From Mesostigma viride (taxonomy: Eukaryota > Streptophyta > Mesostigmatophyceae > Mesostigmatales > Mesostigmataceae): a stretch of 64,000 nt of DNA. Positions 4,008 through 63,785 of this stretch are shown one piece after another. The notes beneath the pieces were generated by a model. That model did not search any database, was not told the origin of the DNA, and was given only the letters and a program-made list of their open reading frames with translations. Location of the stretch: contig RPFO01000050.1 in the NCBI GenBank assembly GCA_009746045.1, positions 3,285,216 to 3,349,215 of the forward strand, given 5' to 3'. Within the stretch, counting starts at the first letter, position 1; the number at the start of each line of letters is the position of its first letter. Position numbers and translations under genes: made by a program.

Positions 4008-7000
4008 GTCCAGCCCCTCTGCGTGCCGCCCCACGGAGGCCGGCACGGCCAGCACAGCCCCGTTGCCGCCCACCAGCAGCCGGCGGTCCTCCACGACCTC
4101 CTTGACAAAGCCGCCTGGAGGCATGTGCTGGCGCACGAGTCCCAGGATCTCCTCGCCATACTTGCGGCACTTTTCAGAGCCGATGCCCTTGACCTGGGTG
4201 CGTTGCGAACAGGGGGATGCGAGGGGGGGATTGATCAACGTGACGATTAGTTAATTTTATATGTTCGTGGGTGTCGTGGTTGCGGCTCCAAACCGATGCC
4301 CTTGACCTGCACGGGTGCTGCCATTGGTGGGCGGGCATGTGGTGCGGGGATACATCGACTGTATAAGTACATCAAGTACATGAACGTGTTGGGATGTGCT
4401 GTTGTTGCCGATACTGGCGAATATGATCTGTTGGTATAGGATAATGCTGGCATAGCATATTGGTGGCATAGTATATTGGTGGCAGAGTAAATTGGTGCCA
4501 GAGTATATTGGTGGCATAGCAAATTGGTGGCATAGTATCTTGGCGGCATAGACTATTGGTGGCATATAATATTGGTGGCATAGTTGGGTGGGTGCGCATA
4601 ACCATGACAACGTAGTTCGTGCGTTGGCGGATGCTTGTTGTTGTGGTCATAGGTTGGAGGCACGTCGCTAATGGGGCGTGCGTGGAGAGATGCGGGTGGA
4701 GGCGGGAGTCAGTAGGCCAGGGGGGCGGGGGGAAGGGGAAACAATTGATGGGGAATAAAGAAAACATGCATAGAGGGGGAGGGGGTGGACCCAGCTTCTC
4801 CAGCATTACAGGCTTTGTCCTTTGGGTTACTTCACATGGCTGATAGTTGTTTTCATCATCATCAATGAGACAACCATCGCAGGCCAGAAATCCGGATTAT
4901 TGCAATTACCAACGTGATTTGTACCCCGCCCCCACCCACCAGCTCTTCAGGTGTGACGGACTTTGTCTTTTGGGTTTCTTCACAAGACTGATAGCTATTA
5001 TCATCGTTATTGCCATTGTCCACGCTATTAGAATGACCCCCACCCACCTGCACCAGCTCTTCGAGCGTGACAGGCTTGTGTGCCGCGATCTCGTCCAAGC
5101 TTGCGTTGTTGATGATGCAGAAGGAGGAGACGCATGCCTCCACCGAGCGCGCGTGGCGCCACGCCTTGAGGCTCGCGTAGATGGCCTCGCCCACCTCGGA
5201 GAGGGGGCGGCGCGCCACATCCTCCATCTTGTCCAGCTTGGCGCGCTTCTGGCGAACGGAGCCCACGAGAACAGAACGCCACACAGAAAAAGAACGCATC
5301 AGGAACAGAACGCCACCCAGAAAATAACGCACCAAGAACAGAGAGAAACGCAGAAAAGAACACACCAAGAAAGACAGACGCATAGAAAGGAACGCACCAA
5401 GGGGAGAGACACAAAGACAAGCCAAAGCAAGCATGGGTACATTGGGAAATTTGCAACGGGTAGATTGGGTAATTTACAACGGGTAAACTGGGTAATCTAC
5501 AATGGGTAAATTGGGTAATTTACAATGGGTCAAGTGTCACACCTGGCACGCTTCTGGCAGACAGAAAGTAGACACCCACACCCACACGCACACACACGCA
5601 CACACACACACACACACAACACTCGCAACGCACACACACACACACACACACACACACACACACACACACTATTACGGTACTTAACTAACACACATGCACA
5701 TGCATTGGCAGCCCCTCACACAGGCGAAGGGTTAGATTCCAAACTTTGAGCCACCCCCGTAGCCCACCCCCCATCCCCCAAAGCCCCCCGCAGTAACCCT
5801 ACCAGAAGCAACCCCTAGGCTTCGTGAGTGCCAACCTTTGGGGGTCGATTGACCCGGGTCTAGCCCCCGGCCCACATCCATCACGGCCCACCATGTTTAG
5901 CCCCCCATGCCAAACACACCTTCATCGGCCGGGGCGCGTGCGGTCCACTTCCACCGTTCACGTCCACTTGCGTCCCGCCACCCGCATGGCTGCCCTGCCC
6001 ATGATGCGCGCCGTGGCCAAGTGGCAGTGCGTCCATGCTGGCGTCCACATCCGCCTCGCCCCCATTGGCCGGTCGCTGGCCCCCGTGGCGGCGGGTTATG
6101 GCCAGGATCTCCTCGCCGTAGCGCCGCACCTTGTCCTGGCCGATGCCCACGATCTGATGCAGGAAAAAGGGCAACAAGGGGGCGCATAGTAAAATATTAA
6201 TTGATAGTCAGATAACTCAGGAGTGGCGCCGCACGTTGTCCTAGCGCCGATGCCGACGATCAGCGGGGCAGAGGAAAGCCAGGCAATTAAGTAGGCACAT
6301 TCTTGATAGATAAAATATCAAATTATTCAACTCAGTAGCGCCGCACTCGGTACTGGCCGATGCCGACGATCAGTGGGGCAGAAACAAGGCAATGTAGGCA
6401 TGGGTCTGGCTCATTAAGAATTTATTCGGTACTGCTAGTTGATCAGCGATGCACTGTGGATGTAGCGGACACCGGAAAGCGGGGGAAGAACCAAGGCAGC
6501 ACGGAGGCAGGGTCTCGTTAACTGGTAAAAGACAATGGTTTCGCTATCTAAGTGATATCTATATGAGGCACGGGGTCAATTTAATGGTTGTTGTCTATGG
6601 TTTCATGGTCTGGTTGACATCTATAGGAGGCAAGGTTTCATCTACGGGTTGATATCGATTCATCGATGGAGCTGTGCGTGAAGGAGGCATGCTGACCATG
6701 GGGTGACGAATGCGTGCGATGGATGGATTGGTTTAGTAATTAAGGCATGAGATGGATTGATTAGTTTGAGACGGATTGATTAGTTTAGTAATCAAGGCAT
6801 GATATAGATTGGTTAGAAAGTTTAGTAATTAAGGTGTATTAAGGGGGCACTAACATGATTTGCTGTCTAGTTGAAGTATTAATTTACGAGGGCATCCAGG
6901 TGGCCTGTGCTGAACTTATGGTACATCATAAAGTGATGAGCCCATTCGGGCGGCAAGGAGCCACATACATAGCGAGATCATTACAGAGTCTGTTGTATCA

Positions 7001-63685: not shown

Positions 63686-63785
63686 GTACGTGCGCTGCCG
63701 TGCAGGAAAGGGCGCTAGCATTCAAGGAATGACCGTTTCTTTCGATTCCCTGAGTTGGCTGAGGAGGTGCGGGAGCTGTCATCAA
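63672..63785 (+). repeat. Copy of the PARP-like exon 2 end plus donor
   Basis: ctggccgaggag with donor gtacgtgcgctg (63674-63697) is echoed by ttggctgaggag with gtgcgggagctg at about 63755-63778, 81 bp into the intron. Downstream to 64000 nothing is recognised. Confidence 0.65.

Follow-up and report, generated by a model that had tools for sequence, protein, structure and literature searches.

Copies of exon edges in the introns of Mesostigma viride, with local tandem duplication as their probable source

Introns of the streptophyte alga Mesostigma viride carry direct copies of the edges of adjacent exons. Random points inside introns are copied as often, exon interiors and the intergenic DNA that we sampled only rarely, and exon-edge copies are found again in another, unrelated gene (RtcB) of the same genome. 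Because random intron points are copied equally often, nothing singles out the junctions, and the best explanation, in our view, is that tandem duplication recurs locally within introns and that its units at times extend past exon edges (probability about 0.7).

We rebuilt gene models from a window of 64,000 nucleotides of nuclear DNA (contig RPFO01000050.1) and compared them with an independent annotation of M. viride. The genes are as follows.

4008..9132, minus strand: HRDC-domain gene, four exons in the window (9132-8557, 6153-5920, 5248-5048, 4193-4008), open spliced frame and Pfam HRDC
14257..31103, minus strand: HCF173-like gene of 12 exons, of which the annotation confirms 2-12 and exon 1 (31103-30806) is a prediction
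39379..44789, plus strand: PGPP1 gene, six exons, 5/5 introns matching the annotation
54682..58648, minus strand: GT29 (sialyltransferase family) gene, three exons, spliced frame and annotation match
60375..63685, plus strand: gene named PARP-like in the initial annotation, with a putative exon 2 donor and its copy

Three models (HCF173-like, PGPP1, and GT29) match the independent annotation at 100%: HCF173-like exons 2-12 are identical to Mesvir1/21708 at 755/755 residues, the PGPP1 product to Mesvir1/21709 over 299 aa, and the GT29 product to Mesvir1/21711 over 95% of the query. The two sources agree in 17 introns (HCF173: 10; PGPP1: 5; GT29: 2), and the three annotated proteins use the exon-proximal splice sites. 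The HRDC model contains two Pfam HRDC stretches (127.4 bits) and is supported because these bridge the joins of exons 1/2 and 3/4 (positions by reading). The PARP-like gene had no Pfam match at E ≤ 0.01 for its exon 1 or exon 2 frame, and its exon 2 donor is putative because the frame reaches a stop codon without needing an intron. In all 22 window-gene intron donors used for the splice model, G precedes GT.

Several features accompany these genes. The candidate HCF173 exon 1 (30806-31103) is plausible and is missing from the public annotation, whose model starts just upstream of exon 2; it would contribute ~99 residues that may form a transit peptide. M. viride has another GT29-domain protein, Mesvir1/21034, 53% identical to the window GT29 product over 84% of the latter. 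A 42-bp satellite (~91 copies, 96% matches) occupies 1-3834. It lies ~170 bp past the final HRDC donor identified, so that the following HRDC intron is its probable location, and an open frame of 1200 codons runs through it on the minus strand.

Copies of exon edges were sought in two ways. In the exon-only test, done in three runs, a copy of 30 exon bases was sought in the adjacent intron and z ≥ 3 was counted as positive; in the 40-bp junction-window test, a neighboring match score ≥14 was counted as positive. By the exon-only test, 10/45 exon ends of the window genes have a significant copy in the adjacent intron. Nine of these reach z ≥ 3 in all three runs (HRDC exon 2 acceptor, exon 3 donor, and exon 4 acceptor; HCF173 exon 4 donor, exon 9 donor, and exon 12 acceptor; PGPP1 exon 3 acceptor and donor; GT29 exon 3 acceptor), and the tenth varies by run. 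The PGPP1 exon 4 acceptor has z = 4.1 in one run and 2.9 in another, the HCF173 exon 7 acceptor 1.4 and 3.0 in the same two, and the PGPP1 exon 4 donor 2.8, 2.9, and 3.7 over the three; both PGPP1 exon 4 junctions are clear by the 40-bp window (scores 21.5 and 24). Most junctions of the window genes have no copy (35/45 by the exon-only test, 31/46 by the 40-bp window at score 14). The copies and arrays outside HCF173 intron 9 are listed below.

6222..6312 (ends approximate), minus strand: intronic copy of the HRDC exon 2 acceptor region, lying ~107 bp before the genuine acceptor
6334..6422 (ends approximate), minus strand: second intronic copy of the HRDC exon 2 acceptor region, ~217 bp upstream
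4895..4970 (ends approximate), minus strand: intronic copy of the HRDC exon 3 donor region, with 34 bases resembling the exon
4786..4820 (ends approximate), minus strand: second copy of the HRDC exon 3 end, exon part only
4275..4352 (ends approximate), minus strand: intronic copy of the HRDC exon 4 acceptor region
25760..25970 (about 25940-25970 and 25760-25786), minus strand: two intronic copies of the HCF173 exon 4 donor edge
14515..14743, minus strand: copies around the HCF173 exon 12 acceptor, exon-edge copy ~200 bp upstream
14515-14542/14620-14647, minus strand: 105-bp sub-duplication near the HCF173 exon 12 acceptor
40850..41271, plus strand: four decayed copies of the PGPP1 exon 3 acceptor edge, 80, 151, 233, and 420 bp upstream
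41439..41678, plus strand: 70-bp tandem array, 3.4 copies, 94% matches, from 26 bp inside PGPP1 exon 3 across the donor
42083..42296 (ends approximate), plus strand: copies of the PGPP1 exon 4 acceptor region
42393..42548, plus strand: 29-bp tandem array, 5.4 copies, from 12 bp inside PGPP1 exon 4 across the donor
43869..44063, plus strand: 28-bp tandem array, 7 copies, beginning at the PGPP1 exon 5 donor
55758..55846 (ends approximate), minus strand: intronic copy of the GT29 exon 3 acceptor region, ~294 bp upstream

A sequence like 'tttctggcctgcg(a/c)tggttgtctc', read by eye, occurs at 4861-4892, within the copy of the HRDC exon 3 donor, and at 12035-12066 and 46360-46398, both intergenic; it might be the terminus of a dispersed element that has inserted into the array.

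The initial annotation had reported junction copies in all five genes; four are clear (HRDC, HCF173, PGPP1, and GT29). Its sites at HRDC exons 2 and 4, HCF173 exons 9 and 12, and GT29 exon 3 are all among the nine consistent positives. At HRDC exon 3 the donor copy is confirmed and the acceptor is weak (40-bp window score 15, exon-only z = 2.5). Among the HCF173 sites that it had rated weaker, the exon 4 donor holds, the exon 8 acceptor is weak (score 15.5, z = 1.2), and exon 3 has no copy by the exon-only test (z = 1.2 and 0.0). For PGPP1, exon 3 and, by the 40-bp window, both sides of exon 4 bear it out, and the exon 5 array starts at the exon end and is nearly devoid of exon sequence. The PARP-like exon 2 donor copy scores 15 in the 40-bp window with an exon-only z of 0.8, and is doubtful.

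For comparison we sampled contig C1, which belongs to the same assembly, as 21 stretches each 10 kb long. The stretch with the clearest multi-exon gene of the sample (L010) had 5/14 predicted edges positive, and the other predicted exons of the random loci, which are doubtful, had 4/73. The RtcB locus was not chosen blind, as two neighboring stretches were added after 5/14 edges were already positive. The exon finder, trained on the window (14/17 internal exons exact on its own training set), gave 11 RtcB exons, and two small ones were added by hand; the product of the 13 exons (446 residues) aligns without gaps to a solved RtcB homolog. At least one RtcB donor lacks G before GT (exon 10 ends in CAT). 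The gene beside it, which we take to be trehalase-like, has junctions that are computer predictions, with the first two exons out of frame with the rest. The exon-only test was positive at 8/29 edges of these two further genes, and a count by gene gave 7/22 copied edges in RtcB and 1/10 in the trehalase-like gene.

When the seven genes were taken together, a small sample of which five came with the original finding, 18/74 edges (24.3%) were copied vs. 490/2081 random intron points (23.5%, P = 0.89). Exon interiors were copied in 14/485 cases, so that edges are affected about eight times as often, and a separate exon-only run in the window gave 10/43 edges vs. 3/177 exon-interior probes (P = 6e-6). 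With the 40-bp window at score ≥14, junctions were positive in 15/46 cases, intron interiors in 27.2% (n = 2973), exon interiors in 4.0% (n = 970), intergenic DNA in 5.9% (n = 2142), and transposon DNA in 2.4% (n = 1196). The 18 positive edges comprise 8 acceptors and 10 donors, so both 5′ and 3′ boundaries are affected. Recognizable arrays are depleted at junctions (6/74 vs. 448/2081 intron points, P = 0.0035), and copies outside arrays are somewhat commoner at edges (14/68 vs. 199/1633 intron points, P = 0.058); the two together fit selection that prunes fresh arrays and constraint that keeps old copies visible. At 15/19 positive edges some copy alignment reaches at least 30 intron bases (with the intron part capped at 60); for 14 of the 15, the intron portion outweighs the exon portion in the best alignment of this sort. 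Tandem units cross junctions at the PGPP1 exon 3 and exon 4 donors (TRF arrays) and at HRDC exon 2, GT29 exon 3, rtcB exon 7, and others (alignment). The copies of the initial annotation are real, lying far above the exon-interior rate, but its view that they center on junctions did not survive these comparisons, and junctions show no enrichment over random intron positions, a result that it had named as refuting its claim.

The initial annotation had also suggested an ongoing process that lengthens introns from the edges; this may be read as junction-targeted copying, in which a mechanism tied to splicing or RNA would preferentially duplicate exon edges. The excess of edges over exon interiors and the somewhat higher frequency outside arrays would suit such targeted copying, but the equal frequency at random intron points, the depletion of arrays at junctions, and the long intron-side reach of the copies argue against it. 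Two comparisons of the copies themselves, biased in opposite directions, bear on the same question. Between intronic copies of a family, similarity is greater over the 22 exon-derived bases than over intron-derived bases 10-32 in 9/10 families, a comparison biased toward the exon part, as copies were found by that part and compared without room for shifts; this result speaks against simple drift and would also suit targeting. A search with the intron side only yielded 12 copies at 9/19 positive edges, with the exon-derived part 74.7% and the intron-derived part 76.5% identical; the exon part of these copies is no better kept, which argues for long units crossing the junction. The same search gave no copy at the other 10/19 positive edges, HCF173 exon 9 among these, again as targeting would have it, and four copies match the exon part only (the second copy of HRDC exon 3, rtcB exon 2, the rtcB exon 7 donor, and one at rtcB exon 11), which also speaks against simple drift. 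On balance we hold junction-targeted copying to be quite unlikely. Intron lengthening as such is plausible, and that it proceeds from the edges is unsupported.

Orientation separates introns from intergenic DNA, inverted matches serving as a control for composition. At edges there are 18 direct vs. 1 inverted matches (n = 62), in introns 177 (24%) vs. 46 (6%, n = 740), and in two intergenic stretches of the window 13 (5.2%) vs. 14 (5.6%, n = 252); introns as a whole carry an excess of direct copies, and the sampled intergenic DNA does not. Arrays with period ≥10 cover 20.9% of introns in the window, 0.95% of intergenic DNA, 0.34% of transposon DNA, and 2.3% of exons; for the RtcB and trehalase-like genes, they cover 16.5% of introns vs. 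5.3% of adjoining DNA. Published figures (PMC6947507) put repeats at 30.1% of intron space and mean intron length at 1142 bp, in the same direction as the array-rich introns found here; the passages that give them make no mention of junction copies.

Transposon DNA in the window includes a LINE-like element at 32657-35914, a single open frame with endonuclease and reverse transcriptase domains. Frames at 37565-38596 (344 codons) and 51231-52607 (459 codons), with no Pfam match, may belong to similar elements.

Duplication might be coupled to transcription and act on transcribed non-coding DNA, which would make it a special case of recurrent local tandem duplication and not a full alternative. 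It would account for the direct excess in introns that is missing from the two intergenic stretches, and for the modest figures at random loci (10.6% direct vs. 7.6% inverted over 3617 points, with L004 excluded along with L010 and L022-L025, which are gene loci). However, intergenic DNA may simply be younger, having been replaced by transposons; the random loci do show some direct excess, and the omitted L004, a satellite locus, is direct at 184/228 points; and in 20 random loci, a satellite among them, 10.4% of the sequence consists of arrays with period ≥10 (median locus 5.8%). We regard the coupling as a tentative possibility, with odds well short of even.

Under recurrent local tandem duplication, M. 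viride introns would grow by repeated local, direct duplication of segments of roughly 30-150 bp with breakpoints anywhere in the intron, and a unit starting or ending tens of bases inside an exon would take the exon edge along. Such a change would be tolerated where the outermost, exon-proximal splice site is still usable and presumably the one spliced, the extra copy becoming intron. Copies would then drift while the exon original is held by selection, so that old junction copies may remain recognizable by their exon part after their intron parts have decayed, and would seem aimed at the junction. Selection would prune fresh junction-spanning arrays, and exon constraint would lie behind the old copies that are still seen. 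The molecular cause may be slippage during replication or the repair of breaks that arise in transcribed introns.

The initial annotation held that splice sites were included in the copies; the splice dinucleotide is intact in 28/37 copies covering it and lost in the remainder, with 22.5 expected from identity under drift. This surplus is weak evidence for upkeep, as the search itself favors well-kept copies, and the decoy splice sites that had been proposed are kept only slightly above drift. Identity of copy to exon, compared with that of copy to copy in ten families, was clearly higher in four, higher by 0.01 in one, equal in two, and lower in three; with a clear surplus in only 4/10, the constraint argument is not general. 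In eight older families the intronic copies differ among themselves by 14-41% in the exon-derived part, which mis-assembly cannot create. An artefact of assembly, with tandem repeats collapsed or expanded, is therefore extremely improbable, although the lengths of the youngest arrays (PGPP1 introns 3-5) could be wrong.

Comparable structures, called mirages, were reportedly first described in lancelets by Canestro in 2002. Excerpts of two later papers (PMC3087553; PMC3902484) describe them as minisatellite-like tandem units of ~10-160 bp that span splice junctions at 5′ and 3′ boundaries, with AG/GT kept in many, not all, copies and the gene still correctly modeled. Judged by these excerpts, the units in M. 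viride are of the same kind, spanning junctions at both boundaries with AG/GT kept in most copies, so the initial annotation's statement that no description was known does not stand: junction-spanning copies are real in M. viride but not wholly new. Unlike in lancelets, the host is a streptophyte alga and the copies are mostly old and diverged; edges were here also compared with random intron points, which are copied as often. Intron gain by tandem genomic duplication of AGGT-containing exon segments (the Rogers model, as cited in PMC3087553; a potato RdRp case, PMC4974935) is alike in that local tandem duplication carries splice-like motifs, but there duplicated gene DNA makes a new intron, whereas in M. 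viride existing introns carry the copies. Ordinary intronic minisatellites resemble the M. viride arrays in having periods of tens of bases, but the latter overrun exon edges and, in the window, fill a fifth of intron DNA vs. ~1% of intergenic DNA. Among the matches listed, from titles and abstract starts of openly licensed papers, there was no report of junction-spanning repeats in algae or plants.

About a quarter of exon ends in the genes examined have been drawn into local repeats, and the leftover intronic junction copies are mostly decayed. Transposons are the usual answer to the still open question of how introns lengthen; in M. viride, introns are filled by short local duplications that also cross splice junctions, and this in a lineage very distant from the lancelets in which mirages were named. 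With a large-contig assembly at hand (contig C1, 14.3 Mb), growth rate, tolerance of doubled splice sites, and any link to transcription are directly measurable. Intronic junction copies can also mislead gene predictors.

HCF173 intron 9 holds six good and two decayed exon-end copies within 820 bp.

17332..18150, minus strand: HCF173 intron 9 array, two ~420-bp blocks, in which the final ~22 nt of exon 9 and the donor recur
17963-17986, 17875-17898, 17737-17760, 17632-17656, 17541-17564, and 17455-17478, minus strand: six good copies of the HCF173 exon 9 end
18055-18079 and 17332-17356, minus strand: two decayed copies of the HCF173 exon 9 end

The two blocks align with a score of 97 vs. 3 ± 7 for shuffles. 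The exon-end copies are 85% alike, and adjacent spacers reach 0.49 vs. 0.47 for shuffles. From block to block, the intronic edges are identical at 63/75 positions vs. 201/312 (64%) for the spacers (Fisher's exact test: P = 0.0009), the three edges individually at 92, 88, and 72%. In six copies an internal acceptor ranks among the best 3% of intronic AGs, outscoring exon 9's own sequence, and four have donors that rank among the best 3% of intronic GTs; the six are candidate acceptor-10 nt-donor units, four with a strong donor. Selection might thus keep intronic copies, at least in this intron, as decoy or stepwise (recursive) splice sites, a reading of the sequence for which the outlasting edges and the strong predicted sites would speak. 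But the signal is strong in one intron only, one copy has GA instead of GT and another lacks CCCAG, and copies found by their intron side show no better-kept exon part, so that we judge such selection very improbable. Unlikely, too, is a combined account in which duplication confined to transcribed introns would be the main engine of intron growth in this early-branching streptophyte and some copies, as in HCF173 intron 9, would now be selected stepwise splice sites. Short-tract conversion, chance, or selection may lie behind the better-kept edges; that edges outlast spacers is not expected from drift alone, and HCF173 intron 9 is the result that drift explains least well.
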